Origin: Deltaproteobacteria bacterium
GTDB taxonomy: Bacteria > Desulfobacterota_C > Deferrisomatia > Deferrisomatales > JACRMM01
Direction: 5' to 3'
Assembly: GCA_016218905.1 (NCBI GenBank)
Contig: JACRCS010000430.1
Coordinates: 1 to 33,918, forward strand
Length of the DNA stretch: 33,918 bases
The notes under the pieces were generated by a model that was not told the DNA's origin, searched no databases, and saw only the letters and a program-made list of their open reading frames with translations. The position numbers and the translations under genes were made by a program. Positions 1 to 31,918 of the stretch are shown here, in pieces (position 1 is the first letter of the stretch; each line of letters starts with the position of its first letter).

Positions 1-1469
1 ATGGCGTTGACGGTGATGCCTGCGCGGTCGAGGCTCCGCTCGGCGTCGAGCCCGGTCACCCCCTTCGAGCTGAGGTCGACGAGGAAGAGGTGGTTGTCCG
101 TTCCGCCGGAGACCGCGGGATAGCCCCGCTCGGCGAGGAGATCGGCGAGCGCGCGTGCGTTCGACACGATGCGCTCGGCGTAGCGGCGAAACTCCGGCGC
201 CATGGCCTCGCGAAAGGCCACGGCCTTGGCCGCGATGGCGTGGACGAGGGGGCCGCCCTGGAGCCCGGGGAAGACCGCCTTGTCGATGGCCTCGGCGTGC
301 TCCTTCCTGCACAGGACGAGCCCTCCCCGGGGGCCCCGCAACGTCTTGTGGGTCGTGCTCGTCACGATGTCGGCGTACGGCACGGGGGTCGGATGGACGC
401 CCCCCGCGACGAGCCCCGCGATGTGCGCCATGTCGACGATGAGGTACGCGCCCACCTCGTCGGCGATCCCGCGAAACGCCGCGAAGTCGAGGGTGCGCGA
501 GTAGGAGCTCGCCCCGGCCATGATCGCCCGGGGGCGCTCCCGGAGCGCGAGCTGGCGGACCTCGTCGTAGTCGATGACCCCCGTCGCACGGCCGACGCCG
601 TAGGAGACGATCCGGTACTGCCGCCCCGAGAAACTGGCGGGAGCGCCGTGGGTGAGGTGCCCGCCGTGGGCGAGCGCCATTCCCAGAAGCGTGTCGCCCG
701 GCTTCAGGAGCGCGAAGTAGGCCGCCATGTTGGCCGCGGAGCCGGAGAGCGGCTGGACGTTCGCGTGCTCGGCGCCGAAGAGCTCCTTTGCTCGGCTCCG
801 GGCGAGCTCCTCGATCCGATCCACGAACTCGCAGCCGCCGTAGTACCGGTGACCCGGGTAGCCTTCCGCGTACTTATTCGTGAGGACGGAGCCCTGGGCC
901 TCGAGCACCGCGCGGGAGGCGTAGTTCTCCGAGGCGATGAGGACGAGGGACTCCTCTTCCCGCCGCATCTCCTGCTGGATGGCGAGCCACGTATCGGGAT
1001 CTGCCTGGGCGAGGGCCGAGCCCCGGGCGGCGTTACGCTCCTCGAACCCGCGGATCTTCGCCAGCCGCCGCTCGTGCCGCCCTCCCTCGAACGGGGTCGC
1101 GAGCCAGGTGCCGACGATCTCCCGCGCCTCTTCCGGTGCGGTCGTCCTGCCGCCGATGACGAGGATGTTCGCGTCGTTGTGCTCCCGGGCCATCCGGGCG
1201 GAGTAGACGTCGTGCGCCAGCGCCGCGCGCACCCCCGCGACCTTGTTGGCGGCGATGCTCATGCCGATCCCCGTCCCGCAGACGAGAATCGCCCGGTCGG
1301 CCTCCCCCCGCCCGACCCGTTCGGCGGCGCTCAGGCCGAAGTCCGGGTAGTCGACCGGCTCGGCCCCGTCCGTGCCCAGGTCCTCCACCTCTTCCCCTCG
1401 GTCCCTGAGGTAGGCCTCCAGGGCCTCTTTGAGTTCGTAGCCGCCGTGGTCGCTGGCAATGAGGATCAT
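1..1469 (-). CDS. rpiB/glyA: RpiB-GlyA fusion: ribose-5-phosphate isomerase B joined to serine hydroxymethyltransferase (C-terminus cut by window edge)
   Basis: Reading down from ATG 1469 one frame stays open for 489 codons and leaves the window. Residues 1-150 are a complete RpiB: DHGG at 7-10, catalytic Cys64 in [13 protein letters not shown], His97 in REHNDAN. Residues ~155-489 are SHMT from its usual N-terminal helix onward: LIASENY (~177-183), [27 protein letters not shown] (345-352), PLP lysine Lys375 in [12 protein letters not shown], and the [12 protein letters not shown] region. By family length about 70-80 SHMT residues lie off the left edge. RpiB converts ribose-5-P and ribulose-5-P; SHMT makes glycine and 5,10-methylene-THF from serine. 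No ATG, GTG or TTG lies in the linker (residues ~141-165), so separate translation of a full GlyA is unlikely. The gene follows fabF by 26 nt. rpiB and glyA are often neighbours in bacteria; a single frame is unusual. Confidence 0.9.
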
Positions 1470-1495: not shown

Positions 1496-2740
1496 TCACC
1501 CTTCGAAGCGCCGGAAGATGAGTGTGGCGTTCGTGCCGCCGAAGCCGAAGGAGTTGGAGAGGACGATTCGTAGTTTACCGCGCCGGGCCACGTTCGGCAC
1601 ATAATCGAGGTCGCACTCGGGATCGGGCGTGTCGTAGTTGATGGTGGGCGGCGCCACCTGGTCTCGCAGAGCCAGGATCGAGAACGCCGCCTCGACGCTG
1701 CCCGCCGCGCCGAGGAGGTGGCCCGTCATGCTCTTCGTGGACGAGATCCAGACCTTCCGGGCGTGCTCGCCGAAGACCTTCTTGATGGCGAGCGTCTCAT
1801 AGTAGTCGTTGAAGGGCGTGCTCGTCCCGTGCGCGTTGATGTAGTCGATCTCTTCGGGGTTGAGCTTCGCCGACCGGAGGGCGGCGGCCATGCAGCGCGC
1901 GGCGCCGTCGCCGTCGGGGTCCGGCGCCGTGATGTGGTAGGCGTCGGCGGTGGCGCCGTAGCCGATGAGCTCTCCGTAGACCTGGGCGCCCCTGGCCCGG
2001 GCGTGCTCGAGGTCTTCGAGGATGAGGACTCCCCCTCCCTCCCCGATGACGAACCCGTCGCGGTCCTTCTCAAAGGGGCGGCTCGCCTTCTCCGGCTCTT
2101 CGTTGCGCGTCGAGAGGGCCCGCATGGAGTTGAAGCCGCCCACTGCGAGCGGGGTGATGGTGGACTCGACTCCGCCCGCGATCATCACCTCGGCGTCGCC
2201 CCGCCGGATCACGTGCCACGCCTCGCCGATGGAGTGCGCCCCGGTGGCGCAGGCGGTCACGATGGCGATGTTCGGGCCCTTGGCGCCGGTCAGGATGGAG
2301 ACGTAGCCCGGGGCCAGATTGGCGATGGCCATGGGGATGAAGAAGGGGCTGACCCGCCGGGCGCCCGATTCGAGGAGGTTCTTGTGCTGCGCCTCGATCT
2401 CCGGCAGGCCGCCGAGGCCCGCACCTATGGAGACGCCGGTGCGCTCGGCCTCTGCGCCTTCGATCTGGAGGCCCGAGTCATCCACCGCCATCTTGCCCGA
2501 GGCCACGGCGTACTGGATGAAGCGGTCCATCTTCTTCAGTTCTTTCTTGTCCGCGTAGAGCGAGCCGTCGAAGTCCTTTACCTCGCCGGCGATCTGGGTC
2601 TTGGTGACCGCGGCGTCGAACCGCGTGATCGGCGCCACGCCGGAAGTTCCCGCCACGCAAGCCTTCCAGCTCTCGGCGGCGTTGTTTCCCAGCGGCGTCA
2701 CGCACCCCAGCCCCGTAACGACCACTCTCCTTCCCACCAC
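1496..2740 (-). CDS. fabF: Beta-ketoacyl-ACP synthase II (FabF)
   Basis: This 414-residue protein condenses malonyl-ACP with acyl-ACP in the elongation step of type II fatty acid synthesis in the cytosol. It has the normal KAS II length and the complete Cys-His-His triad: Cys164 in [10 protein letters not shown], His304 in [11 protein letters not shown] and His341 in [14 protein letters not shown]. The gatekeeper-side FGFGGTNA motif is near the C-terminus. The start is GTG 2740, preceded by a strong AGGAGG seven bases upstream. It is the last fab gene of the operon, after acpP, but separated from it by a 185-bp gap holding an inverted-repeat element. The rpiB/glyA fusion follows. Confidence 0.97.
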
Positions 2741-2773
2741 GATGCTCCTCCTGAACCCGCCGAAACGGGTTCA

Positions 2774-2899
2774 TTTAGGGAAGAGAGCCAACCTACTAGA
2801 TACTGGAGGCTAGAGACTTGGGACTAGGAACAAAGATCGATCCAGTGTTCTAGTATCTAGTCTCCAGTTTCTAGTCTCTGGCTGGTTCTCTTCCCTAAA
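2774..2899. repeat. 126-bp imperfect inverted repeat built from degenerate heptamers, inside the fab operon
   Basis: The ends are near-perfect inverted copies: TTTAGGGAAGAGAGCCAACC at 2774 and the reverse complement TTTAGGGAAGAGAACCAGCC ending at 2899. Each arm contains about five 7-bp units in tandem: CTAGATA, CTGGAGG, CTAGAGA, CTTGGGA, CTAGGAA at 2796-2830, and TCTAGTA, TCTAGTC, TCCAGTT, TCTAGTC, TCTGGCT at 2849-2883. The inner pair ACTAGGAACA / TGTTCTAGT closes around a short loop. It lies wholly between acpP and fabF, so the transcript could fold into a long cruciform-like hairpin. It resembles a small non-autonomous intergenic repeat (MITE- or STRR-like). No coding potential was seen. 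Confidence 0.75.
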
Positions 2900-2925
2900 A
2901 AGTGATGTCGCTGATTTTGGTGAAG

Positions 2926-3168
2926 TCAGGCTGCCAAGCGAGACTTGATGTAGTCGACCGCGTCCTGCACGGTCCGGATCTTCTCCGCGTCCTCATCGGG
3001 AATTTCCTGGTCGAACTCTTCTTCGAGCGCCATCACCAGCTCGACGGTGTCCAGGCTGTCGGCCCCGAGATCCTCGATGAAGCTCGCCTCGGCTACGACT
3101 TTCTCGATCTCCACACCGAGCTGCTCAGCGACGATCTTCCGGACGGTCTCTTCGATGTTAGCACTCAT
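2926..3168 (-). CDS. acpP: Acyl carrier protein
   Basis: This 80-residue acidic protein carries growing acyl chains on a 4'-phosphopantetheine arm. The attachment serine is Ser38 in the canonical [18 protein letters not shown] motif. Length, charge and the four-helix pattern match AcpP. The start is ATG 3168 with a purine-rich GAGAGGAAG just upstream. It lies between fabG and fabF in the usual fab order. A 116-bp spacer separates it from fabG; I see no clear terminator there, only a small imperfect hairpin around 3222-3240. Confidence 0.97.
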
Positions 3169-3284
3169 TCTCTTCCTCTCTTCTCAGGTGATTTGCGGTT
3201 GCTCACGGTCCGTCTTCCGATTCCCCGTGCGGCACCGGGGATGCGCCGCCGTTCGAGGGCCACGGCGCTCCGGGAGACGATCCG

Positions 3285-4022
3285 CTAGGCCATGTACATC
3301 CCGCCGTTGACGTGAAGCACCTGGCCGGTTACGTAGGTGGCCCCCTCCGAGGCCAGAAAACCGACGACGCGGGCGACGTCTTCCGGCGTTCCCAGACGGC
3401 CCAACGGGATCTGGCTCAGCAGGGCGTCCTTGGCGTCCTCTCCGAGGGCGTCGGTCATGTCCGTCGCGATGAAGCCCGGGGCCACCGCGTTGACCCGGAT
3501 GTTGCGGTTGGCGTACTCCCGGGCGAGACTGCGGGTCAGGCCCTCGAGGCCCGACTTGGAAGCGCAGTAGTTCGCCTGTCCAGGGTTCCCCATTTCACCG
3601 ACGACGCTGGAGATGTTGATGATCACGCCGGCCCGCGCGCGGATCATGTGCCGCAGGCACTCCTTGCAGCAGAGGAACGCCCCGGTAAGGTTGGCGTCGA
3701 GCACCGCGCGCCAGTCTTCGAGCTTCATGCGCAGGATGAGGTTGTCCCGGGTGATGCCGGCGTTGTTCACCAGGACGTCGATCCCGCCCCAGGCCCGCAC
3801 CACCTGATCGACCGCGGCGGAGACGCTCGCCGGATCGCTGACCTCCAGGGCCAGCGCAAGGGTCTCGCCGCTCAGGGCGGCGGCGACCGAGGCCGCGGCC
3901 TCCTGGCTCCGGCCGGTCAACGCGACCCGCGCCCCCCCGGCGGCGAAGTGCGCGGCGACGGCGCGGCCGATGCCCCGGGTCGAACCGGTGACGAGGACTC
4001 TCTGGCCCGCGAAGGCGCTCAC
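3285..4022 (-). CDS. fabG: 3-oxoacyl-ACP reductase (FabG)
   Basis: This NADPH-dependent short-chain dehydrogenase reduces beta-ketoacyl-ACP. I start it at GTG 4022, which overlaps the fabD stop as GTGA and gives 245 residues, the standard FabG length. A frame open further upstream to 4244 would add a non-homologous arginine-rich stretch lying inside fabD. Motifs: TGSTRGIG cofactor loop at residues 12-19, NNAG at 86-89, and the catalytic Ser139-Tyr152-Lys156 with YCASK. The C-terminal VTGQVLHVNGGMYM is typical. It is translationally coupled to fabD. Confidence 0.96.
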   Translation of the reverse strand: MSAFAGQRVLVTGSTRGIGRAVAAHFAAGGARVALTGRSQEAAASVAAALSGETLALALEVSDPASVSAAVDQVVRAWGGIDVLVNNAGITRDNLILRMKLEDWRAVLDANLTGAFLCCKECLRHMIRARAGVIINISSVVGEMGNPGQANYCASKSGLEGLTRSLAREYANRNIRVNAVAPGFIATDMTDALGEDAKDALLSQIPLGRLGTPEDVARVVGFLASEGATYVTGQVLHVNGGMYMA

Positions 4023-4963
4023 GCGGCCGCTCGCAGCTGGGCCCCGAGGGCCTCGAGCGAGGAGGGGTCTTCGACGTTGAGGACCCGCGCTTCGGGGACG
4101 ATGCGCCGCACCAGCCCGGAGAGGACCTTGCCGGGCCCGACCTCGACGAAGGTGTCGACGCCCATGGCCGCGAGCCGGCGCACGCTCTCCTGCCACCGGA
4201 CGGGCGAGCTCACCTGCCGGACCAGGAGATCCCGGATCCGACAAGCCTCCCGGTTCGGCTGAGCGTCGACGTTCGCGACCACGGCGTTGTCCGGCTCGCA
4301 GAGCTCCACCTCCTCGAGCACCGCCGCGAGCCGCTCGCCCGCGGGGAGCATCAGCGAACAGTGGAAGGGAGCGCTCACCGGCAGCGGCAGCGCGCGCTTG
4401 GCGCCAGCCTCCCGCGCCCGCCTTCCGGCCTCCTCGGCCGCCTCCTTGTGTCCGGAGATGACGACCTGACCGGGGCAGTTGTCGTTGGCGACCTCCACGA
4501 CGCCGCCGGGCCGGCTCACGTCGGCGCAGATCAGCTCCAGAGGCCCGGCGTCGAGCCCGAGGACGGCGGCCATCGTGCCCGTGCCGAGCGGGACCGCCTC
4601 CTGCATGAATCGCCCCCGCTTCTCCACGATCCGAAGGGCGTCGCCGTACTCCAAGGCGCCGGCCGCCACCAGCGCGCTGTACTCGCCGAGGGAGTGACCG
4701 GCGAGCGCCGCGGGGCGGAGCTCGACGGCCTCACGCAGGGCGCGCAGACAGGCGACGCTCACCGCCAGGATGGCGGGCTGGGTGTTCCACGTGATCCGCA
4801 GCTCCTCTTCCGGTCCTTCGAAGAGGAGCCGGGTCAGGGGTCTGCCGAGGGCGTAATCCGCCTGCTCCAGCGCTTCTCGGGCGGCGGGAGAGGCTTCTGC
4901 CAAGGCTCTGCCCATACCGACATACTGGGAGCCCTGTCCCGGGAAGACGAAAGCGATGCTCAT
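4019..4963 (-). CDS. fabD: Malonyl-CoA:ACP transacylase (FabD)
   Basis: It transfers malonyl from CoA to ACP, supplying the elongation unit. The 314-residue protein begins with the FPGQGSQYVGMG signature, carries the nucleophile Ser91 in GHSLGEYSAL, a substrate-carboxylate arginine in the KRGRFMQEA segment (~115-122) and His201 in VSAPFHCSLM. Near the C-terminus FVEVGPGKVLSGL is intact. The start ATG 4963 has GGAG seven bases upstream. It is separated from fabH by 90 bp containing a possible internal promoter, and overlaps fabG by 4 nt. Confidence 0.97.
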   Translation of the reverse strand: MSIAFVFPGQGSQYVGMGRALAEASPAAREALEQADYALGRPLTRLLFEGPEEELRITWNTQPAILAVSVACLRALREAVELRPAALAGHSLGEYSALVAAGALEYGDALRIVEKRGRFMQEAVPLGTGTMAAVLGLDAGPLELICADVSRPGGVVEVANDNCPGQVVISGHKEAAEEAGRRAREAGAKRALPLPVSAPFHCSLMLPAGERLAAVLEEVELCEPDNAVVANVDAQPNREACRIRDLLVRQVSSPVRWQESVRRLAAMGVDTFVEVGPGKVLSGLVRRIVPEARVLNVEDPSSLEALGAQLRAAA

Positions 4964-5016
4964 GGGGTGGCTCCAACGGGCGGGGTATCGGGAACGGCGC
5001 GGGAAAGGTTCGGCAG

Positions 5017-5046
5017 AATATACAGAGGGGGGCTGTCCAGGCGCAA
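5017..5046 (-). promoter_or_regulatory. Possible internal promoter upstream of fabD
   Basis: On the minus strand TTGCGC and TATATT are separated by 18 bases in the 90-bp fabH-fabD gap. A better TTGACC sits just upstream but at 24 bases, too far to pair with this -10. This could raise fabD-fabG-acpP-fabF expression relative to plsX-fabH. The evidence is only the match to sigma70 boxes. Confidence 0.3.
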
Positions 5047-5053
5047 GGTCAAA

Positions 5054-6052
5054 CTACCAGCGCAGGAGCACGGCCCCGGACGTCACCCCCCCGCCGAAGG
5101 CAGCCATGAGGACCGTATCCCCGGTCCCGAGGCGACCCGAGCGGACGACCTCGTCGAGGGCGATGGGGATGGACGCGGCCGACGTGTTCCCGTACCGGTC
5201 TAGGTTCACGTACACGCGCTCGGACGGGACGCCCAGGCGCTTCGAGACGGCGTCGATGATCCGGCGGTTGGCCTGGTGGGGGATGAAGAGCGAGAGGTCT
5301 CGCCCGTTGACGCCCCCCGCCTCCAGGGCCGACACGGCCCTCTCCTGGAGGGCGCGCACGGCGATCTTGAAGACCTCGTTTCCGTGCATCTTGATGTAGT
5401 GGAGCCGCGCCTCGACGCTCTCGTGGCTCGCGGGGTTTCGGCTGCCGCCGCCGGGCATGTTCAGGATGGACCAGTGGTTGCCCTCCGCCGCCATCCGCCA
5501 GGCGAGGATGCCCCGGTCGGGATCGTCGGAGGGGCCCACGACGGCGGCGCCCGCCCCGTCTCCGAAGAGGACGCAGGTGGCGCGGTCCTCCCAGTCGACA
5601 ATCCGGCTCAGGAGATCGGCGCCGACCACGAGAGCGCGCCGGGCGGTCCCCGCCCGCACGAACTGGTCGGCGACGGCAAGCCCGTAGACGAAGCCCGTGC
5701 AGGCGGCGGTCAGGTCGAAGGCCATCTGCCCCCGGATCCCGAGCCGGTTCTGGAGGAAGCACGCGGTGGAGGGGAAGGGCATGTCCGGCGTGGCGGTGGC
5801 GACGATGAGCAGGTCGAGCTCCGGCGCCTTGACGCCGGCCGCCTCCAGAGCGCGTCGGGCGGCGACCTCGCAGAGCTCGCTCGTGCAGACGCCCGGCGGA
5901 GCGATCCGGCGCTCCCGAATGCCCGGCCGCTCGACGATCCACTGGTCGCTCGTCTGGACCATCACCTCGAGGTCGGCGTTGGTGAGCACGTTGTCGGGCA
6001 CGCACGCGCCGATGCCCAGGATACGGGCCCTCGCTGGGAGCTCAGTCTGCAC
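5054..6052 (-). CDS. fabH: Beta-ketoacyl-ACP synthase III (FabH)
   Basis: It starts fatty acid synthesis by condensing an acyl-CoA primer with malonyl-ACP. The 332-residue protein has the KAS III Cys-His-Asn triad: Cys118 in LTAACTGFVYGL, His259 in FIPHQANRRI and Asn289 in DRYGNTSAAS, plus the C-terminal FGGGVTSGAVLLRW. The start is GTG 6052, immediately abutting the plsX stop (TGAGTG), so translation is probably coupled. Order plsX-fabH-fabD is the standard bacterial arrangement. Confidence 0.97.
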   Translation of the reverse strand: MQTELPARARILGIGACVPDNVLTNADLEVMVQTSDQWIVERPGIRERRIAPPGVCTSELCEVAARRALEAAGVKAPELDLLIVATATPDMPFPSTACFLQNRLGIRGQMAFDLTAACTGFVYGLAVADQFVRAGTARRALVVGADLLSRIVDWEDRATCVLFGDGAGAAVVGPSDDPDRGILAWRMAAEGNHWSILNMPGGGSRNPASHESVEARLHYIKMHGNEVFKIAVRALQERAVSALEAGGVNGRDLSLFIPHQANRRIIDAVSKRLGVPSERVYVNLDRYGNTSAASIPIALDEVVRSGRLGTGDTVLMAAFGGGVTSGAVLLRW

Positions 6053-7144
6053 TCAGCCTTCCCCTTCCTCTTCCCGCCGGTGGATGATCTTGTCCTTCAA
6101 CTGGTTCCAGAGCCGCAGCGCCTTGCGGGAGCCCCAGGCCTCGAGATCCTCGTTCTTCTCGAGGCTCTGCATCATGTGCAGGTTGACTCGCTCCTCGGCG
6201 AAGGAGCGGGCGGCGCGAATGGCGTTCTTGATCGCCCGGGCGTCAGAGGAGCCGTGGCTGATGATGCCGACGCCGTTGACCCCGAGCAGCGGCGCGCCGC
6301 CCACCTCGGCGTAGTCGAGCCGGCCCTTGAGCCGTTTGAAGGAGCCCCTGGCCAGCACGTACCCGAGCCGGGACAAGAGGCCGACGCGGAGCTCGGTCTT
6401 GAGCATCGTGCCGAACGCATGGGCCAGCCCCTCGGAAGCCTTCAGGACGACGTTGCCGGTGAAGCCGTCGCAGACCACGACCTCGGTCTTGCCGGCGAAG
6501 ATGTCCCGGCCCTCCACGTAGCCGACGTAGTTGAGGCTCGACTTCCGGAGCGCCTCGTCGGCCGCGCGGGTGAGGTCCGTGCCCTTCGTCTCCTCCTCGC
6601 CGTTCGAGAGGATGCCGACGCGGGGGCTGGGGATCCGCAGTGCGTGACGGGCGAAGACGTCGCCCATGATCCCGAACTGGATCAGGTGGATCGGCTTGCA
6701 GTCGACGTTCGCGCCCACGTCCAGGAGCACGGTCGGGCCGTTGAGCGTCGGCAAAATCGCCGCGATGGCGGGCCGTTCGACGCCCGGCAAGAGCCGCAGC
6801 GAGAGCATGGCGACGGCCATGGCGGCCCCGGAGTTCCCTGCGCTCACCGCCGCCACCGCCTCACCCGTCCGGACCAGCTCGAAGGTGACCCGGATCGAGG
6901 AGTCCCGCTTGCGCCGCACCGCGACCGAAGGGCTATCGTGCATCTCCACCACTTCCGAAGCGTGCTTGATGGAGACCGGAAGGTCTTTGGCCTTCTGTCG
7001 CTTCAGGAGGTGGAAGAGGATCTCGCGGTCGCCGACCAGGATGACGTGGATGCCGTACTCGGAGGCGGCCAGGACGGCGCCCTCCACCACGGCCTCAGGG
7101 GCGTGGTCGCCCCCCATCGCGTCGACGGCCACTCGCATGGGCAT
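6053..7144 (-). CDS. plsX: Phosphate acyltransferase PlsX
   Basis: It converts acyl-ACP to acyl-phosphate, the donor for PlsY in phosphatidic acid synthesis, at the inner face of the membrane. The protein (~363 residues) begins with the family hallmark MRVAVDAMGGDHAP and contains SAGNSGA, DVGANVDCKP and VCDGFTGNVVLK. The start is uncertain between ATG 7144, ATG 7138 and a TTG at 7147; the family N-terminus fits 7138 or 7144. The C-terminus carries an extra basic/acidic tail (KDKIIHRREEEGEG) of about 50 residues after the usual end. It follows rpmF by 10 nt. Confidence 0.95.
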   Translation of the reverse strand: MPMRVAVDAMGGDHAPEAVVEGAVLAASEYGIHVILVGDREILFHLLKRQKAKDLPVSIKHASEVVEMHDSPSVAVRRKRDSSIRVTFELVRTGEAVAAVSAGNSGAAMAVAMLSLRLLPGVERPAIAAILPTLNGPTVLLDVGANVDCKPIHLIQFGIMGDVFARHALRIPSPRVGILSNGEEETKGTDLTRAADEALRKSSLNYVGYVEGRDIFAGKTEVVVCDGFTGNVVLKASEGLAHAFGTMLKTELRVGLLSRLGYVLARGSFKRLKGRLDYAEVGGAPLLGVNGVGIISHGSSDARAIKNAIRAARSFAEERVNLHMMQSLEKNEDLEAWGSRKALRLWNQLKDKIIHRREEEGEG

Positions 7145-7154
7145 CAAGGGCCAA

Positions 7155-7343
7155 TCAGCCCTCGGCCTCCTTCACCGTCAGCACGGTCCTGCCCTTGTAG
7201 GTGCCGCAGACCCGGCACGCGCGGTGGGGTTCCTTCGGCTCCAGGCACTGCGGGCACTTGTCGACGTTGGGAGCCGCGAGGCTCAGGTGGGACCGGCGCT
7301 TACGCTTCCGCGCCAGTGAGGTTCTCCTCTTGGGGACGGCCAT
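7155..7343 (-). CDS. rpmF: 50S ribosomal protein L32
   Basis: This 62-residue basic protein has the L32 start MAVPKRRTSLARKRKRRSH and two zinc-knuckle pairs, CPQC and CRVC, so it is the zinc-binding (C+) form. Linkage yceD-rpmF-plsX-fab is widely conserved and couples ribosome assembly to lipid synthesis. The start ATG 7343 is the family start. It lies 37 nt after yceD. Confidence 0.97.
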   Translation of the reverse strand: MAVPKRRTSLARKRKRRSHLSLAAPNVDKCPQCLEPKEPHRACRVCGTYKGRTVLTVKEAEG

Positions 7344-7380
7344 GGACTTCTCCTCTCAGGGTCGGTTCAACCGCGAAGGG

Positions 7381-7926
7381 CTACTTCTTCTTTGGGGCGA
7401 CGGTGCCGAGCACCGCGAAGCGGGGATCGACCGGCGCCGGGGGGCAGCGGCACTGCTCCGCGTTGAGGTTGGCGCCGCACGTGGGGCAGAGGCCCCGGCA
7501 CGCCTCCCGGCAGACGGGATGGGCCCGCAACGCCAGCGAGATCTCCTCGGCCGCAACCCGCGCGAGGTCGATCGAGTCGCCCTCGATGGGCTCCACGTCG
7601 AGGTCTTCCTTGCGCAACTCCACCTCGCCGGCGCCGTACTCCTCCTCGGCGGAGAAGACGCGGTGGAAGTCGGTCTTGAGGTCCTCCTCGAAGGGCTCCA
7701 GGCACCGCACGCACTGGTAGGCGATCCGGACGCGCACGGTTCCGAGCACGAAGACGTCCCTCCCGGACCGGTACGCCTTGGCCTCCCCGACGGCGTCGCC
7801 GACCGCCTCGGCCTCCGAGACGCCTTCCGAGGCGAGGAAGCCGTTGATCTCCTGGGCGGGAATCTCCAGCGGGAACGTCTTCCCCTCTGCGGGAAGCGTA
7901 TCCACGACGACGACGATCGGGCGCAC
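7381..7926 (-). CDS. yceD: DUF177 / YceD-family protein (large ribosomal RNA accumulation protein)
   Basis: This 181-residue acidic protein matches the DUF177/YceD family, linked in E. coli to 23S rRNA accumulation and usually encoded before rpmF. Two cysteines in YQCVRCLEPF form the central CxxC, and a Cys-rich C-terminal stretch (CREACRGLCPTCG) may bind metal. I choose GTG 7926: it has GGAGGT nine bases upstream, while the upstream in-frame ATG 7962 overlaps the -10 box of the operon promoter and so cannot be on the main transcript. It is the first gene of the yceD-rpmF-plsX-fab operon. Confidence 0.9.
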   Translation of the reverse strand: MRPIVVVVDTLPAEGKTFPLEIPAQEINGFLASEGVSEAEAVGDAVGEAKAYRSGRDVFVLGTVRVRIAYQCVRCLEPFEEDLKTDFHRVFSAEEEYGAGEVELRKEDLDVEPIEGDSIDLARVAAEEISLALRAHPVCREACRGLCPTCGANLNAEQCRCPPAPVDPRFAVLGTVAPKKK

Positions 7927-7960
7927 GAAACCAAGACCTCCGCGTGAAGAGGAGCACGTC

Positions 7961-7988
7961 ATTATAGAAATGGGCCCTACCCAGTCAA
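7961..7988 (-). promoter_or_regulatory. Sigma70-type promoter of the yceD-rpmF-plsX-fab operon
   Basis: Minus-strand -35 TTGACT (7988-7983), a 16-base spacer and a perfect -10 TATAAT (7966-7961). Transcription would start near 7954, giving a leader of roughly 28 bases that contains the GGAGGT ribosome site of yceD. This is the strongest promoter match in the window and fits a housekeeping operon. Confidence 0.8.
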
Positions 7989-8106
7989 GCTCTTTCACCC
8001 GCGAGAGGTCCGACCGGCTTGCCCCACGGGCGGGCCCGGACCTAAGTTTGCGTTGACCTTTGATTCTGGGCCCCGGGCTTGGGGCTCTCCGCTTGAGGAG
8101 GTGACC

Positions 8107-8442
8107 ATGGCCAAGTCCAACCGAGCACAGGCCCTCCAGCGGGGCGCGAGCGCACGCGTGATTCTCGGGATCGGTGTCTCGGCGCTGCTCCTCGTCGCGG
8201 GGGCGGCCATCTCCATGACCGGCGTCGCGGCCTTCTTCGGCTTCCCTCTCATGGCCGTCGGCCTCTTCGCGCTGGTGACGACGCCCTTCCTGGCGCGGAG
8301 GAATCCCGACGCGACTCCGTGCCCGTGGTGCAGCGCGAAGGTGGGCACCCGGAAGCGGAGCGGCCCCATCATCTGCCCGGAGTGCAAGAAGACGATCGTG
8401 GTCGGGCCGCCCGAGGACAAGTGCTGCGCCTGTCCTCCGTGA
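8107..8442 (+). CDS. Small membrane protein with C-terminal zinc ribbon, function unknown
   Basis: The gene is divergent from yceD. ATG 8107 follows GAGGAGGTGACC, a near-ideal ribosome site, and yields 111 residues; an upstream in-frame ATG at 8053 has no such site. The product has a short basic N-terminus, two hydrophobic segments (about residues 15-37 and 39-58) forming a membrane hairpin, then two CxxC pairs (CPWC and CPEC) that look like a treble-clef or zinc-ribbon knuckle, and a Cys-rich tail CCACPP. I do not recognise a specific family. It is one of only two plus-strand genes in the window. Confidence 0.75.
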   Translation: MAKSNRAQALQRGASARVILGIGVSALLLVAGAAISMTGVAAFFGFPLMAVGLFALVTTPFLARRNPDATPCPWCSAKVGTRKRSGPIICPECKKTIVVGPPEDKCCACPP

Positions 8443-8523
8443 GGAGTTCCGTCGCGGAGCGAGCGAAGGCAGGGTGGGGCCGGCCGCCACACCCGCCTGG
8501 CCTGGGACGATGACGGGCGGCAG

Positions 8524-9150: not shown

Positions 9151-10506
9151 TCACATGCCGCCGCCCGCCGCGCCCTCCAGGAGGTAGCCCGCCTCCACCG
9201 CGGCCGGGTAGAAGATCTTCGGCAGGAAGAGGCTCAGGTCCGGCCAGTATACCAGGATCGCGAGCACCGCGATCTGGAGGAGGAGGAACGGCAGGATGGA
9301 CCGGACCACGTAGATCAGGTCCTTCTTCGCGAGCGTCATCGCGATGTAGAGGCTCACGCCCACGGGCGGAGTGATGTACCCGATGCCCAGGTTCACGGTC
9401 ATGAGGAGCCCGAAGTGTAGGGTGTTGATCCCGAACTTCGCCAGCATGGGGAGCAGGATCGGCGTGATGATGATCGTCGCCGAGATGATGTCCATGAACA
9501 TCCCGACGACGAGGAGGAACAGGTTCACGATCCCCAGGAAGACCCACTTGTTCGTGATGTTCGCCGTCACCGCATCGGTGATCATGTCGGGGAGCCGCTC
9601 GACCGTCAGGTACTTCCCGAAGACCGTGGCGCCGGAGACGATGATGAGGAGCGTCGCGGACTGGACGGCCGAGGTGACCATGACCTTCTTCGCGATCGCG
9701 AGGGTCATGTTCTTGTGGACCCAGAGCTCGATCACGAAGGCGTAGACGCTCGCGATGACGGCGGCCTCGCTGGCCGTGAAGATGCCGGTGTAGATCCCGA
9801 CGAAGATGATCACGGGCAGGAGGATCGCCCAGATGCTGTCCCGGAGTGTCGAGACGAACTCTTTGAAGCTCGGCAGGCTCCGGGTGGCCATCCCGCGGCG
9901 CTTGCAGACCACGTACGAGTACACGCACAAGGACCCGATGAGGAGGGCGCCGGGCGCGTAGCCGGTCATGAAGAGGGCCGCGAGAGAGTCGTTCGTCACC
10001 GCAGCGTAGAGCATCATCGAGATGCTCGGCGGGATGATGATCCCTAGAATCGGCGACGAGGTCATGAGGCCCACGGAGAAGTGCTCGTCGTAGCCGTCGG
10101 CGACGAGGGCCGGAATCATGAAGCCGCCGATCGCGACGACGGTCGCGACCGTGGAGCCGGAGATCGCGCCGAAGAGCCCGCACGCCACGACCCCCGCCAT
10201 GGCGAGCCCGCCCGGGAAGAACCCGACGAGGGCCTTCGCGAAGTTGATCAGCTTCTTCACGATGGAGCCCGCGGTCATGATGTTCCCGCAGAGGACGAAG
10301 AAGAGCACGACCACCAGGGAGAAGTTGTCCATGGCCTTGTAGAAGCCTTCGAGGAGCAGCATCGACTGCGTCTCGAAGGACATCTGGGCTTGGGCGAAGA
10401 AGGCGAGACCCACGATCCCGGCGGCAAAGAGGCTCAAGGCGACCGGGATCGTCAGGCCCAAGGCAACGAAAAAGAAGAGGATCACGTAGAGGATCGTGTT
10501 GTCCAT
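9151..10506 (-). CDS. dctM: TRAP transporter large permease subunit (DctM)
   Basis: This 451-residue, very hydrophobic protein of ~12 membrane helices is the large ion-coupled permease of a tripartite (TRAP) transporter. Family segments: LFGAISGSTVATVVAIGGFM (about a third of the way in), SSPILGIIIPPSISMMLYA, and TPPVGVSLYIAMTLAKKD near the C-terminus. ATG 10506 lies 30 nt after dctQ. A Gly-rich tail (EGAAGGGM) ends it. With dctP and dctQ it would import an organic acid driven by Na+ or H+; the substrate cannot be read from sequence. Confidence 0.95.
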   Translation of the reverse strand: MDNTILYVILFFFVALGLTIPVALSLFAAGIVGLAFFAQAQMSFETQSMLLLEGFYKAMDNFSLVVVLFFVLCGNIMTAGSIVKKLINFAKALVGFFPGGLAMAGVVACGLFGAISGSTVATVVAIGGFMIPALVADGYDEHFSVGLMTSSPILGIIIPPSISMMLYAAVTNDSLAALFMTGYAPGALLIGSLCVYSYVVCKRRGMATRSLPSFKEFVSTLRDSIWAILLPVIIFVGIYTGIFTASEAAVIASVYAFVIELWVHKNMTLAIAKKVMVTSAVQSATLLIIVSGATVFGKYLTVERLPDMITDAVTANITNKWVFLGIVNLFLLVVGMFMDIISATIIITPILLPMLAKFGINTLHFGLLMTVNLGIGYITPPVGVSLYIAMTLAKKDLIYVVRSILPFLLLQIAVLAILVYWPDLSLFLPKIFYPAAVEAGYLLEGAAGGGM

Positions 10507-10536
10507 GGTCGGTCCTCGCAGACGCTGGTGGCGAAG

Positions 10537-11031
10537 CTACTTGGCGCTGATCGGCTTGCCCGTGAGGTCCTCGTACAGCACCTGGAGCTGGCGGAGGACC
10601 ATGAGGATCCCCATCAGCGGCAGGACGCAGTAGAGGTACCGCTGCGGGATCTTCATGACGGTGGTGACCTGGCCCGTCATCATCTGGAGCTGGACGAGCT
10701 TGATCCCGTAGTAGGTGGCGAAGCCTGCGAAGACGAGCACGGCGACGTGGTTGACGAAGTCGAGGGGTTTGGCCAAACTCTTGATCAGGTTCGGGATGGC
10801 GTCGATCCGGATCATGGCGCGGTTCCGGATCGCGACGGAGCAGCCGATGAAGGTCGTGTACATGATCACCTGCCGGACGAACTCCTCCGGCCACGTCATC
10901 GTGTAGGTGATCGTGTACCGGGTGACGACCGTGATGAACAGCCCGACGAGGGCCGCGAAGACCATCAGGAAGAGCGTCCACTCCTCGAAGAAGGAGAGGA
11001 CCTTGTCGAGATAGTAGAATGCTTTGCGCAT
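10537..11031 (-). CDS. dctQ: TRAP transporter small permease subunit (DctQ)
   Basis: The 164-residue protein has four membrane helices (about residues 15-40, 52-70, 93-113, 133-150). The TMTWPEEFVRQVIMYTTFIG and RNRAMIRIDAI segments are DctQ hallmarks. ATG 11031 is preceded by GGAGG with a 4-base spacer, a strong site. It lies 65 nt after dctP, and that gap holds a terminator-like hairpin, then dctM follows by 30 nt. Confidence 0.93.
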   Translation of the reverse strand: MRKAFYYLDKVLSFFEEWTLFLMVFAALVGLFITVVTRYTITYTMTWPEEFVRQVIMYTTFIGCSVAIRNRAMIRIDAIPNLIKSLAKPLDFVNHVAVLVFAGFATYYGIKLVQLQMMTGQVTTVMKIPQRYLYCVLPLMGILMVLRQLQVLYEDLTGKPISAK

Positions 11032-11062
11032 CGTTCCTCCCTATTACTCCCTGGAAATGAAA

Positions 11063-11088
11063 AGGGCCGGGGTTTGCTCCCCGGCCCT
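11063..11088 (-). terminator. Terminator-like attenuating hairpin between dctP and dctQ
   Basis: A perfect 10-bp stem (AGGGCCGGGG / CCCCGGCCCT) closes a 6-base loop, and on the minus strand it is followed by TTTTCATTT. It lies just after the dctP stop. The likely role is to end most transcripts after dctP or protect its 3' end, so that the periplasmic receptor is made in excess over the membrane subunits, as is common in solute-receptor operons. Confidence 0.7.
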
Positions 11089-11096
11089 GAGCTGCG

Positions 11097-12152
11097 TTAG
11101 GGCTTATAGCCCAAGAGGGCCTCCACTTTCTTCAGGTAGTCCACCCCGATCTTGTCGTCCCACTCGCGGAAGACCGCCTGGCTCTGCTTGCGGAGCGTCG
11201 CGATCTCGGACTCGGGAAGCTTGATGAACTCGATGCCGGCCGCCTTGGCCTTGGCGATCTCCGCGTCCTCCTGCTTCCGGCCGGCTTCCCGGGCCTTGGC
11301 GCACTCCTCGCGGGTGACGTCCAGCAGGGTCTTTTGGATGTCCTTCGGCAGGGAGTCGACGAACTTCTTGTTGTACATGTGGATCAGGAGACCCTGGGCA
11401 TAGTCGATCTGGGTGAAGTACTTGGCGACCTCGAACTTCTTCGTCAGGTTGCAGACGATGGCCGTATGGTCGAGGGCGTCGATGACGCCTTGCTTCAGCG
11501 CGATGTGCACGTCCGGCCAGGGCATCGGCACGATGTTGAAGCCCCAGGCCTTGTAGATGCTCTGGTTCACGTCCGCCTCGGCGATGCGGAACTTGAGGGG
11601 CTTCGCGTCGGCGATCTTGCGGATGGGCTTGTCGGAGGCCCAGCCGTAGTTCCCGTACGTGGTCACGTCCACGCCCATCACGCCCTTGTCGAGGGCGCCG
11701 GCGAGCATGTGGTCGAAGAGGGGCTTGTCCTTCACGAACTTGTCGAGCTTATCGAAGGAGTTGACGAGGAAGGGCAGGTTGATGATGCCCATGCGGGGGC
11801 CGATCTTCGGTGCGACCACGGACGAGCAGAGCATCCCCTGGACCGCGCCGATCGTGAGCTGGTTCAGGACCTCCACCTCGCCGCCGAGCTGGGAGAGCGG
11901 GTAGTAGTCGTAGTAGAGCTGCCCGTTCGTCTTCTCCCAGAGCGCGTCCCGGATCTTGTAGCCGACCGCGAACGCCTCGATGGCCGGCGTCGAGACCGCC
12001 GACACCTTCATGACGTACTTGGCGGTCTTGGGATCGAACTTCGGCTTCCACGCCTCCATGGGACTCGGCGCCGGGCCGGCGATGCCGACGCCGACCGCGG
12101 CTCCGACTCCCAACACCAGGCCCAGCGCGACGAGCGGCTTCCAGGTCTTCAT
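11097..12152 (-). CDS. dctP: TRAP transporter substrate-binding protein (DctP family)
   Basis: This 351-residue periplasmic receptor has a signal peptide (positively charged start, hydrophobic core to about residue 27). The mature part follows the DctP fold: the GGEVEVLNQLTIGAVQGML segment, the carboxylate-binding arginine region LKFRIAEADVN, and PWPDVHIALKQGVIDALDH, then the helical C-terminus. ATG 12152 has AAGGAGTGAGCC upstream. It is first in dctP-dctQ-dctM. The ligand is probably an organic acid; DctP proteins also bind amino acids and sugars acids, so specificity is unknown. Confidence 0.95.
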   Translation of the reverse strand: MKTWKPLVALGLVLGVGAAVGVGIAGPAPSPMEAWKPKFDPKTAKYVMKVSAVSTPAIEAFAVGYKIRDALWEKTNGQLYYDYYPLSQLGGEVEVLNQLTIGAVQGMLCSSVVAPKIGPRMGIINLPFLVNSFDKLDKFVKDKPLFDHMLAGALDKGVMGVDVTTYGNYGWASDKPIRKIADAKPLKFRIAEADVNQSIYKAWGFNIVPMPWPDVHIALKQGVIDALDHTAIVCNLTKKFEVAKYFTQIDYAQGLLIHMYNKKFVDSLPKDIQKTLLDVTREECAKAREAGRKQEDAEIAKAKAAGIEFIKLPESEIATLRKQSQAVFREWDDKIGVDYLKKVEALLGYKP

Positions 12153-13721: not shown

Positions 13722-14501
13722 TCAGCGCTCTTCCTCCATCGCAATCAGCGCCGCGCCGTAGGCGCCGACGAACTGCGGGAACGGAGGGATCTCCACCTTC
13801 GCTCCGGCTCGCGCCCCGAGGAGCTGGGCGACGATGGGGAAGGCGGCGACGACGCCGCCGGTGAGGACGATGGAGCCGCCCAACGGGCCCATCTCCACGA
13901 CCCTCGCCACGACCGCGTTGAAGATGCCCCGGCAGATGTTCTCGGGATCCTCGCCCTCGCGGATGAGCTTGATCACCTCGGTGGCCGAGAAGACGGTGCA
14001 GAAGGAGGCGAGCGTGATCTCCCGGGTGGCCGCCTCCGCGAAGGCCTCGAGCTTCTCCAGAGGGACGTCCAGGCGGTGGGCGATCTCCTCGATGAAGGCG
14101 CCGGTGCCGGCGGCACACTTGCGGTTCATCAGGAAGTTCGCCACCGCGCCGTCGGCCCGGACGTGGATGATCTTGTTGTCCTGCCCCCCGATGTCCACCA
14201 CGTCCATCTCCGAGGGGAAGTGGCGGTACGCTCCCCGGGCGTGGCAGGAGATCTCCGTGCGCCGCGCGTCGGCGAAGGGCACGTTCCTTCGGCCGTAGCC
14301 CGTGGAGACCGTGCGGACGAGCTCCGCCCCCCGGGCCGCGGCTGCCGCGAGCACGTCGTCCCGGAGCGCCTCGGCGGCGTCCTCGAAGCGAATGCCCGTG
14401 CGCCGGATCGCCCGGGTGGTCACCTGGCCGGTTTCGTCCACTGCTACGGCCTTGGCCCAGGCGGAACCGAGATCGAGGCCCAGAAAGAGCTTCGTCGCCA
14501 T
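13722..14501 (-). CDS. ATP-dependent activator of 2-hydroxyacyl-CoA dehydratase / benzoyl-CoA reductase (HgdC/BadG-BcrA-type ATPase)
   Basis: This 259-residue ASKHA-fold ATPase matches the archerase family that drives an electron at very low potential into its partner by ATP hydrolysis. It has the phosphate-binding LGLDLGSAWAKAVAVDE (residues 7-23), VVDIGGQDNK (101-110), and the two cysteines that bridge a [4Fe-4S] cluster between monomers: Cys129 in NRKCAAGTGAF and Cys168 in ASFCTVFSATEVI. LTGGV near residue 210 is the second phosphate loop. ATG 14501 follows the dehydratase subunit by 10 nt with AAAGGCGG as ribosome site. Length is typical of HgdC. Confidence 0.93.
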   Translation of the reverse strand: MATKLFLGLDLGSAWAKAVAVDETGQVTTRAIRRTGIRFEDAAEALRDDVLAAAAARGAELVRTVSTGYGRRNVPFADARRTEISCHARGAYRHFPSEMDVVDIGGQDNKIIHVRADGAVANFLMNRKCAAGTGAFIEEIAHRLDVPLEKLEAFAEAATREITLASFCTVFSATEVIKLIREGEDPENICRGIFNAVVARVVEMGPLGGSIVLTGGVVAAFPIVAQLLGARAGAKVEIPPFPQFVGAYGAALIAMEEER

Positions 14502-14511
14502 CGTCCGCCTT

Positions 14512-15729
14512 TCAGCCCAACTGCTCCACGAAGGCCTCGATATTGGTCTTCGCCTGCTCCTCCGAGAAGCACCGCAGGTCGTTCAGGTCTCCATAGAGGA
14601 CGACGTAAGGGACGCCGGTCTTCTCCTTGAGCCGCTGGGGCAGGCCGTAGCGGGTGTTGGAGTTGTTGGGGCAGGTCTTCGCGTCGTGGTAGACGACGCC
14701 GTCCACCGAAAAGTCGGAGAGGAGGCGGGCCATGACCGCTTCCTTCTCCGCGTCGGTCCGGACGATGAAGAGCTCCAGGTACGCGCGGGCCATGCTCTCG
14801 AAGGGCTCTGCGGGATCGAACGCCTCGAAGACCCAGGAGTTGCAGTAAGTCGAGACCACGATGGCCGAGCGGAGCTCCTGGAAGAAGGTCGCGAGCTCCT
14901 TGAGCTTGCCCCAGACCGGCATGCCTTCCCAGTAGAGGCGCCTCCGCTCGCCTTCCACCGCCGAGGTCCCGTTGGCGACCCGCTCCCGGAGCTCCTCCAG
15001 GACGAGCCGGTAGAAGTCGACGGCCTGCTGCGTGCCCCGCAGGACGACGGCGGGCCCCATGAGGATGCTGGCGTCGAAGAACGTGAGGGGGCTCGGGCGG
15101 GCCCGCGCGGTCCAGAGGACGGACTTCCAGAGCTCCGTCGCCTGGGCGGAGAGCCGGAGGATCTCCCGGAAGCGGTCGATATCGAACCTACGACCGGAGA
15201 CGGCCTCCAGCGTGGGGATGAGCGCCTTGTACTGCGCGACCATCCCGCCGAGGATCTCGCCGGTCAGCGCCTCCACCTTCACCGGCGAGTGCACGCCGGC
15301 CAGCGGCACGCCCCACCGCCTCGAGTAGAAGGCGAACCAGTCCTGGACGTCCCGGCATTGGTTCGTGTTGAAGACGAGCACGTCCGCCTTCGGGATCGCT
15401 TGCAGCCCGTACCCCTTCGTCAGCGGCGTCTCGCCCGCGAGGAAGGCGCCCACGTCCGACGTGAGGTAGCTGCAGATGTCGGGGCTGTAGCCGAGGGCGT
15501 TCGCCAGGGGAATGTAGTCGTTGGCGACGCGGGTCGCTCCCAGGAGCGCTCCGTGGTTCTCCGGGAAGTAGACCTTGAAGCCGAAGCTCAGGAGAAGTTC
15601 CGCCGGTCCCACGCTCGTGCACCAGGCGACCTTCTGCTCGGGGTCGCGCGCGGCCTCGTCCACTTCGCGGAAGTGGCCGGCCATGAGCTCCTTCATCTGC
15701 TTCTGGCAGCGGAACGGCTGGAACGCCAT
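14512..15729 (-). CDS. 2-hydroxyacyl-CoA dehydratase / benzoyl-CoA reductase-family subunit (HgdB/BcrC-like)
   Basis: The 405-residue protein has the family's three Fe-S ligand regions: Cys37 in VAWCTSVGPAELLLSFG, Cys86 in DICSYLTSD and Cys125 in FNTNQCRDVQD. Its C-terminus (GDLNDLRCFSEEQAKTNIEAF) is the usual family end. ATG 15729 lies 2 nt after the crotonase stop, so translation is coupled; the activator follows by 10 nt. Known enzymes of this family need two such subunits (HgdA+HgdB or BcrB+BcrC); only one is present here. It may act as a homodimer, use a partner elsewhere, or be a single-subunit branch. Substrate unknown: radical dehydration of a 2-hydroxyacyl-CoA or reduction of an aromatic acyl-CoA are both possible. 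Confidence 0.9.
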   Translation of the reverse strand: MAFQPFRCQKQMKELMAGHFREVDEAARDPEQKVAWCTSVGPAELLLSFGFKVYFPENHGALLGATRVANDYIPLANALGYSPDICSYLTSDVGAFLAGETPLTKGYGLQAIPKADVLVFNTNQCRDVQDWFAFYSRRWGVPLAGVHSPVKVEALTGEILGGMVAQYKALIPTLEAVSGRRFDIDRFREILRLSAQATELWKSVLWTARARPSPLTFFDASILMGPAVVLRGTQQAVDFYRLVLEELRERVANGTSAVEGERRRLYWEGMPVWGKLKELATFFQELRSAIVVSTYCNSWVFEAFDPAEPFESMARAYLELFIVRTDAEKEAVMARLLSDFSVDGVVYHDAKTCPNNSNTRYGLPQRLKEKTGVPYVVLYGDLNDLRCFSEEQAKTNIEAFVEQLG

Positions 15730-15731
15730 GG

Positions 15732-16679
15732 TCACTCTCCCTTGAACTCGGGCTTGTAGGCGCCGATGCTCTTCAGCCCGTGGAGGGCGTCCTTGGTCGC
15801 GAAGATCTCCATGAGGCCGGAGAGCTCGAGCTCCAGGCCCGACTCCAGGTCCTTGCGGAGGCCCTCGTCGACGACGCGGTTTGCGAAGCGGATGGCGAGC
15901 GGCGCCTTGCGCGGGATGACCTTCGCGGCCTGCTGGACGCGTGGGTCGTCGCCCGCGGCCTTGCCGGCGATCATGTCCGCCACGCGGGCGTCCGAGAAGG
16001 CCTCGGCGACGGGCTCCCAGCCCTGGGGGACCGGCCTCGGCGCGAACTTGTCGGCGATCTTCCCCGAAAGGACGAGCTCTTTCACGTAGGCGTCCACCTC
16101 TTCGGAGGGCGCGAAGTAGCGGGCGAGACCGAGCTCGTGGGCGGTCTTCCCGTCCACGAGCTGGCCCGAGAAGATGAGGTACTTCCCGAGCTCCTTGCCT
16201 ACCGCCCGCGGCGTCCGCTGGGTGCCGCCCAGGCCCGGGTAGATTCCGATCCCGGTCTCCGGCAGCCCGAAGCTCGCCTTCTCCGTGGCGACGATGGCGT
16301 GGCACGCCAGCGAGAGCTCGGTCCCGCCGCCCAGGGCGAGCCCGTTCACCTTGGCGATGACGGGCTTGAAGCAGGTCTCGAGCTTCCGGAGCAGGCGGTG
16401 CCCCCTCCGGGTGAACTCCAGGATCTTCGGGATGGTCCCGGCCTCCACGTGCTCGATGAAGAACTTGATGTCCGCGCCGGCGATGAACGCCTTGCCGCTG
16501 CCTTCGAGAACCACCGCGCGCACGTCCGGACGCTGGGAGGCCTGGTCGAAGGCGGCCTCCAGCTCGGAGACGACCTGCTCGTTGAGCGCGTTGAGCGCTT
16601 CCGGCCGGCGAATCGTGATCGTCGCGATGCCGCTGTCGACGCTCGCATGGATGAAGGCCGCCTGGGTGGACTCTGCCAT
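15732..16679 (-). CDS. Enoyl-CoA hydratase/isomerase (crotonase superfamily)
   Basis: ATG 16679 gives 315 residues; a frame open upstream to 17210 lies across the divergent HEAT gene and is not real. The crotonase core occupies residues ~8-200: oxyanion-hole IAGADIKFF (66-74) and NGLALGGGTELSLACH (112-127), with both hydratase glutamates, Glu121 and Glu141 (GLPETGIGIYPGLGG). The C-terminal ~110 residues are longer than in a standard 260-residue hydratase. It is the first gene of a tight three-gene unit with the dehydratase subunit and activator, suggesting it hydrates the enoyl-CoA product or feeds that pathway. A BamA-like ring hydrolase is an alternative, but those are usually longer (~375 residues). 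Confidence 0.9.
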   Translation of the reverse strand: MAESTQAAFIHASVDSGIATITIRRPEALNALNEQVVSELEAAFDQASQRPDVRAVVLEGSGKAFIAGADIKFFIEHVEAGTIPKILEFTRRGHRLLRKLETCFKPVIAKVNGLALGGGTELSLACHAIVATEKASFGLPETGIGIYPGLGGTQRTPRAVGKELGKYLIFSGQLVDGKTAHELGLARYFAPSEEVDAYVKELVLSGKIADKFAPRPVPQGWEPVAEAFSDARVADMIAGKAAGDDPRVQQAAKVIPRKAPLAIRFANRVVDEGLRKDLESGLELELSGLMEIFATKDALHGLKSIGAYKPEFKGE

Positions 16680-16764
16680 GGTTCTCCTCCTCCAGGATCT
16701 CGCTTCACTGGGAAGCCACAACGTGTGCTCCGGCCGAAGCGCCTGCCGGCCGGAGCGGAGCGCT

Positions 16765-16773
16765 AGTATAGCA
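16765..16773 (-). promoter_or_regulatory. Possible extended -10 promoter of the crotonase-dehydratase-activator unit
   Basis: On the minus strand TGCTATACT fits an extended -10 (TGnTATAnT), 86 bases before the crotonase start. No good -35 is visible, as allowed for extended -10 promoters. It lies in the 183-bp divergent gap shared with the HEAT-repeat gene. Confidence 0.4.
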
Positions 16774-16862
16774 GGAGTTCTCCACCGACCGGACGGTAAA
16801 AATCCCTCGTCGTCTCCGCGCCCCGCTGATACCCTGTCGCCGCTCCGGACAGAAAGAGGCCC

Positions 16863-24239: not shown

Positions 24240-24294
24240 GAGAGGCCTCCATCGGTTGGGGCAGTGGGTGCGGGAGGGTGGGAAGACGAGGTGA

Positions 24295-28121: not shown

Positions 28122-28142
28122 GGAGGCGTCCTCCTGGAGGGC

Positions 28143-28847: not shown

Positions 28848-28891
28848 CGGGCCACTCCTTCCCGGCGGGGCCTTCGGCGGAGGCCACCGCC

Positions 28892-29689: not shown

Positions 29690-29723
29690 GCTCTCACCCG
29701 TTCTTACGAAGTCGCGGAGCCCG

Positions 29724-31917: not shown

Positions 31918-31918
31918 G

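Follow-up and report, generated by a model that had tools for sequence, protein, structure and literature searches.

The window, that is, the whole stretch of 33,918 nucleotides that was analysed (contig JACRCS010000430.1 of assembly GCA_016218905.1), begins with a single stop-free frame on the minus strand, which the window translation follows from an ATG at 1469 down to position 3 over 489 codons. As a preliminary description had claimed, this frame reads from ribose-5-phosphate isomerase B (RpiB) into serine hydroxymethyltransferase (SHMT, GlyA) without a stop (Table 1). Both domains share the frame, and the linker between them offers none of the usual starts: inspection of codons 140-171 found ATG, GTG and TTG all absent from codons 140-153 (window 1011-1052), and the first ATG after the linker is residue 168, within the N-terminal part of SHMT. 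A free SHMT made from an internal start was rejected on these grounds, and the earlier statement that the linker gives a separate GlyA no such start codon is upheld. The frame lacks an N-terminal LMWPc domain, and the first frame start lies 10 codons ahead of RpiB residue 1. As the DNA is G+C-rich and leaves a plus-strand frame (3-1604) open as well, the open frame alone is weak evidence for a fused protein.

Table 1. Position of the fused gene, of its upstream neighbour, and of LMWP-SHMT fusions at other loci
Feature	Position	Strand	Basis
RpiB domain (ribose-5-phosphate isomerase B), residues 1-139	1053..1469	-	PF02502 and TIGR01120
Linker, about 13 residues (140-152), without in-frame ATG, GTG or TTG	1014..1052	-	codon check and domain borders
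SHMT domain (GlyA), residues 153-489, C-terminus outside the window; PLP lysine Lys375	3..1013	-	PF00464 and NF000586
fabF, next gene upstream of the fusion	1496..2740	-	Pfam ketoacyl-synt N and C
LMWP-SHMT fusion without RpiB domain	L073:7386-9224		
LMWP-SHMT fusion without RpiB domain	L183:2846-4579		
LMWP-SHMT fusion without RpiB domain	L185:2493-4313		
LMWP-SHMT fusion without RpiB domain	L199:2512-4329		

In the RpiB half, the Pfam family PF02502 (LacAB_rpiB) covers residues 2-139 with 193.8 bits and its full profile (1-138 of 138), and the NCBIfam model TIGR01120 scores 158.4 bits against a cut-off of 138.65. This half carries Asp7-His8, Cys64 and His97, and the full profile together with these positions confirms the initial reading of a complete RpiB with Cys64 and His97. 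We take the Asp-His pair near the N-terminus, the cysteine in CGTGxG and the histidine in HNDAN to be the catalytic residues of RpiB. The SHMT half is covered from residue 153 to 488 by PF00464 (487.9 bits, profile 1-359 of 399, the match ending at the window edge) and scores 526.7 bits with NF000586, for which the cut-off is 335. Its PLP lysine is Lys375 in the motif TTTHKT, exactly as it had been placed before; the SHMT itself had been regarded as complete, and this part did not stand, because its last 75-80 or so residues fall outside the window, past base 1, when judged by close relatives of 561-580 amino acids. Glu202, Asp346 and Arg378 are also present and, like Lys375, presumably have their usual roles in the SHMT active site. 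The 120 aligned proteins, the window protein included, show no variation at Asp7, His8, Cys64, His97, Glu202, Asp346, His374, Lys375 and Arg378. Judged by these residues, both halves are likely to be active, each with its own active site.

The search with the window protein scored 8000 candidates, and the best 120 of these, one of them the window protein itself, all contain both Pfam domains, with a query coverage of 99-100% in the 119 others. Within this best 120, the nearest homologue is 79% identical, and the 42 nearest relatives (66-79% identity, 561-580 amino acids, from several source collections) are all two-domain single proteins. Among them are P0002-P0035 (561-580 amino acids, both domains, 72-79% identity). 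The nearest species-named relative in the same set is that of Deferrisoma palaeochoriense (P0015, 76% identity; class Deferrisomatia, phylum Thermodesulfobacteriota), and the source names in the set include Deferrisomatales, Deltaproteobacteria, Nitrospiria, Manganitrophaceae, Verrucomicrobiota and Kiritimatiellae. Measured between fixed points, the junction has 65 residues in the window protein and 60-68 in most of the 120, with a maximum of 81, and the linker sequence varies from clade to clade in the alignment.

It has to be considered in this context whether an error in assembly or sequencing removed the stop that separates two genes. In all but one of the six phylum samples described below, most genomes lack the fusion, and some carry both genes in-frame, separated by one to three stops, so that one substitution can mimic a fusion. 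Such an error would have to be reconciled with the 42 nearest listed relatives, all of them two-domain single proteins, and with a linker that lacks ATG, GTG and TTG for a separate GlyA. Since the homologues all carry both domains with junctions of similar length, we regard the fusion as genuine; the two-domain homologues and their invariant catalytic residues rule out the artefact as an explanation of the family and leave it very unlikely for the window copy, with a probability that we consider close to nil. The original judgement that no indel is involved is therefore sustained, and close relatives do not uniformly have separate rpiB and glyA genes, as P0002-P0035 show and as fused genes occur in four of the six phylum samples.

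In the full-length monomer model of P0015, a high-confidence prediction (mean pLDDT 89.8, pTM 0.73), RpiB comes first; its C-terminal helix spans 131-144, SHMT follows after a break at 145-149, and residues of about 145-149 are the only non-helical stretch between the domains. As a monomer, the model is uninformative on whether RpiB and SHMT dimers share one assembly. The top Foldseek match is the SHMT of Bacillus stearothermophilus (1kkj, TM 0.97 to the target), and only SHMT entries appear among the 50 matches listed.

The gene fabF lies on the same strand and ends 26 bases before the ATG of the fusion, and both are probably part of the same operon. Upstream, a run of fatty-acid genes (fabF-acpP-fabG-fabD-fabH-plsX, with a YceD gene beyond) leads into the fusion at 1496-8490. 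Elsewhere, the window contains genes for a BadF/BcrA-type ATPase, a 2-hydroxyglutaryl-CoA dehydratase D-like protein, an enoyl-CoA hydratase and a UbiD decarboxylase (13722-17210 and 26311-28146), which look like anaerobic aromatic or acyl-CoA metabolism, two sets of TRAP-type transporters (9151-12152 and 23283-26298; DctM/DctQ/DctP, and DctM with an NMT1-like binding protein), and a transporter of the branched-chain-amino-acid ABC type with two ATPases, a binding protein and two permeases (28143-32785).

At other loci the order of genes is recurrent. Among 23 non-PVC fused loci, FabF is found upstream in 21, and dCMP deaminase and NrdR downstream in 19 and 17, respectively; in L085 both downstream genes were identified by Pfam. 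Loci with unfused neighbours (79) show NrdR in 49, dCMP deaminase in 34 and FabF in 30. At the remaining 37 fused loci (PVC and L006), FabF, dCMP deaminase and NrdR were not found within reach, and LMWP lies upstream in 20, in seven of these in-frame. dCMP deaminase, SHMT, RpiB and NrdR all serve the supply of nucleotides and deoxynucleotides.

The distribution of the fusion was followed in genomes sampled from six phyla, each phylum being named after the record title of its centre locus, and a gene was counted as fused when the window protein matched over both halves in one frame without a stop. Among the matches listed, this applies to 22 of 198 genomes in the phylum of Desulfatitalea (G018), where 193 have any match, each of the 22 has exactly one, and 15 further genomes contain both halves in-frame with one or two stops. 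The corresponding counts, again among the matches listed, are one of 148 in the phylum of a Thermodesulfovibrionia MAG (G012) and 111 of 145 in that of a Lentisphaerae MAG (G010, Verrucomicrobiota-type); in at least four of these 111 (G439, G445, G422, G410) the RpiB half is degenerate. The remaining three samples were searched at E <= 1e-100, a threshold at which very divergent fusions may be missed, and gave one of 80 in the phylum of an Acidobacteria-labelled MAG (G003) and no fusion in the 120 genomes from the phylum of a Rhodospirillales MAG (G024) or in the 78 from that of an Omnitrophica MAG (G022). The single G003 fusion is counted with caution, as it lies on a contig of 5,980 bases in a genome that also has a separate RpiB and may be a binning error. 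In-frame gene pairs separated by one to three stops were seen in all samples except the Verrucomicrobiota-type one. A contig scan with two SHMT patterns, which is not a census, gave at least 80 loci, of which 11 are fused.

In most fused genomes examined, the fusion appears to be the only source of the two activities. We examined 36 such genomes, namely 22 of the Desulfatitalea phylum, G341 of the phylum of the Thermodesulfovibrionia MAG, and 13 PVC genomes; 33 were drawn from the fused genomes of the phylum samples (22, 1, 111 and 1) and three more from the contig scan. The RpiA family was found in none of the 36, although the same search was positive in eight of 14 control genomes, and none has a second full-length SHMT. 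Additional partial SHMT matches occur in three genomes (22.7-27.6 bits, one of them just above the Pfam cut-off of 27), and a second RpiB in two (G341 and G415). Likewise, the fusion is the sole match in ten of the 11 fused genomes of the contig scan, G003 with its separate RpiB being the exception. Many fused genomes are MAGs, so that single absences are soft because of possible incompleteness, but the agreement across genomes is not. As RpiA, a second SHMT and mostly also a second RpiB were not found in these genomes, the cell seems to depend on both halves, and loss of either activity would probably be costly.

The phylogeny points to more than one origin. A careful tree of 82 rows was built from the RpiB and SHMT columns with the linker left out; the trees exclude L077, which has a short RpiB, and seven duplicate loci, and the careful tree drops 72 of 154 rows, including the long branches L022, L028 and L190. 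The fewest changes between the fused and the separate state number 10 on this tree, in which bootstrap support had not completely converged (correlation 0.982), and 11 on both the SHMT-only and the RpiB-only tree, for loci that were partly chosen by similarity to the window protein. Label shuffles (500) give at least 20 changes, and seven changes are left when only branches with a bootstrap of at least 95 are considered. Individual cases are P0047, which groups with the separate-gene locus L111 (support 100/97), and L091/L095 with the separate-gene locus L158 (95/95); the fused rows L152 (with L056, 82/87) and L092 (with L164, 85/50) are weakly placed. One ancient fusion followed by splits is disfavoured, as it requires at least 15 later fissions against 10 changes and as a single fused clade is rejected with p-AU 2.2e-7, in a model that leaves horizontal transfer outside. 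The fusion thus probably arose repeatedly, and horizontal transfer of fused genes could raise or lower the number of origins. Loss of the stop between adjacent genes is probably the simplest route: the first tree set, which is enriched for such pairs, has 78 unfused neighbours, and in 37 of these the two open frames are in-frame and no more than 12 bases apart, mostly with a single stop between them. L152, L105 and L126 carry an ATG three codons ahead of where SHMT begins; L152 and L126 also have a Shine-Dalgarno-like stretch there, and from the genes of these two loci a free SHMT might be made in addition to the fusion.

Many related proteins contain a third domain. An extra LMW-phosphatase domain is present in 20 of the best 120 of 8000, and these have kept the RpiB residues. 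The picture changes in a second protein search, started from the three-domain protein L193, whose RpiB match is poor: all of the best 120 of 7997 are three-domain proteins, and the alignment shows Asp7, His8, Cys64 and His97 jointly kept in only seven of them, Cys64 replaced by Asp in 97, and His97 mostly by Gln. P0131-P0240 and L190, L191, L192 and L193 represent this Verrucomicrobiota-type LMWP-RpiB-SHMT form, in which the domain is retained and Cys64/His97 are lost in most cases. In P0121-P0123 from Methylacidiphilum, M. infernorum included, residue 64 is Ser and residue 97 is Glu. The SHMT lysine Lys375, in turn, is present in all 244 aligned rows. All four genomes with a degenerate RpiB domain that were examined have a separate full RpiB, and RpiA was found in none of the four. 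In the LMWP-SHMT proteins of Table 1 the RpiB domain is missing altogether; three of these four genomes have a separate RpiB, which was not found in the fourth (G786). The model of a degenerate protein, which is of modest quality overall (pLDDT 76.8, pTM 0.44), shows the degenerate domain as an alpha/beta domain at residues of about 163-281 (block pLDDT 79-91) without the C-terminal helix. Mean pairwise identity among the 97 degenerate proteins, which are close relatives of one another and represent few independent cases, is 0.80 for RpiB versus 0.89 for LMWP and 0.89 for SHMT, and the values for 26 intact three-domain proteins are 0.62 (RpiB), 0.56 (LMWP) and 0.75 (SHMT). The degenerate RpiB domain is less conserved than its neighbours, yet far from unconstrained.

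From these observations we think it highly probable that the window encodes a bifunctional housekeeping enzyme with independent halves, which arose by repeated stop loss and offers a benefit in co-supply. In this bacterium related to the Deferrisomatales, RpiB and SHMT would both be active and tied together through a short linker, with separate active sites and no intermediate handed across. The stop codon would have been lost between co-directional neighbours in the order fabF-rpiB-glyA-dCMP deaminase-nrdR, and the same loss would have occurred independently in several bacterial lineages. Ribose-5-phosphate leads to PRPP, and methylene-THF to thymidylate and purines; the benefit would probably be that two enzymes feeding nucleotide synthesis are supplied together in translation, at a fixed one-to-one ratio. 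Co-supply is favoured because the neighbours of the fusion serve nucleotide supply, which holds for the non-PVC loci only. In short, the fusion is real and probably convergent, its enzymology ordinary, and the protein uncharacterised in the literature searched.

A near-neutral origin, in which the joined termini were free, the loss of the stop was tolerated and drift fixed the fusion with no benefit, is possible if somewhat doubtful. Single stops between in-frame neighbours are readily found, linkers vary between clades, and the RpiB domain has decayed or is absent within some fusions, whereas the frequency in the Verrucomicrobiota-type sample (111 of 145 among the matches listed, versus 0 of 120 and 0 of 78 in two others) looks like retention in some lineages. 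A different view is that one half is under the control of the other's product or ligand state, for example that a pentose phosphate regulates SHMT. Several fusions of one and the same pair, with its order unchanged, would fit, as would the degenerate RpiB still conserved before SHMT in 97 proteins (0.80), as a regulatory pseudoenzyme might be. We know of no metabolite or intermediate that RpiB and SHMT share, which led us to reject channelling and speaks against such coupling too; rpiB and glyA are adjacent anyway, so that repeated fusion is explicable without it. In addition, four LMWP-SHMT proteins manage without an RpiB domain, and RpiB is the less conserved part of the degenerate set (0.80 against 0.89 for both LMWP and SHMT), unlike in the intact set, where it exceeds LMWP (0.62 against 0.56). 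We therefore hold substrate coupling to be unlikely. Its most specific form, in which pentose-phosphate binding in the RpiB half tunes the activity or assembly of SHMT so that one-carbon supply tracks ribose-phosphate supply, appears more unlikely still; if true, the Verrucomicrobiota-type RpiB (Cys64 to Asp, His97 mostly to Gln) would have lost catalysis and kept sensing as a pseudoenzyme regulator of SHMT. An obligatory coupling is argued against by the decay or absence of the RpiB half while SHMT stays fused to another domain, and by the separate RpiB in the four degenerate-domain genomes examined. The metabolic link through one polypeptide that was initially envisaged finds no support here.

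The bifunctional enzyme with independent halves is of wider interest, since two non-consecutive, widely conserved enzymes have apparently been fused repeatedly in the same order, the fusion seemingly being the sole source of both activities. Adjacent genes with one stop, fused genes, fusions with a dead domain and fusions from which the domain is absent form a natural series that asks what is gained by gene fusion.

The architecture as such is not a new design: at least 119 other database proteins share both domains, and a three-domain version has been in print since 2008, when Hou et al. (PMC2474590) noted a phosphatase–RpiB–SHMT protein, Minf_1669, in Methylacidiphilum infernorum and suggested a functional link between serine and pentose phosphate metabolism. 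In view of the decayed domains, a fused RpiB domain should not be taken as such a link. In the open-licence PMC literature, we found no paper beyond PMC2474590, among the matches listed, on Minf_1669 or on Methylacidiphilum with both enzymes, no characterised RpiB-SHMT fusion, and no description of the two-domain form or its repeated origin. Minf_1669, so far as described there, resembles the window protein in combining RpiB and SHMT in one polypeptide, probably in the same order to judge from its near relatives L190-L193, and differs by the extra low-molecular-weight phosphatase domain that the window protein lacks. Moreover, the M. infernorum protein P0122, which we take to be Minf_1669, has Cys64 replaced by Ser and His97 by Glu, so that its RpiB half is probably inactive, unlike that of the window protein. 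The closest solved relatives are single-domain proteins, namely the SHMT of B. stearothermophilus (PDB 1kkj) for the SHMT half, by sequence and fold, and the RpiB structures PDB 3he8 and 3ph3 for the RpiB half, by sequence. Most similar to the window protein are the RpiB-SHMT fusions of Deferrisomatales, Nitrospirota, Kiritimatiellae and others, known from sequence, which are likewise two-domain proteins, mostly of about 558-585 amino acids, with intact residues. The separate rpiB and glyA neighbours, which in many cases stand in the order fabF-rpiB-glyA-(dCMP deaminase)-nrdR, differ from them by a stop and a separate start.
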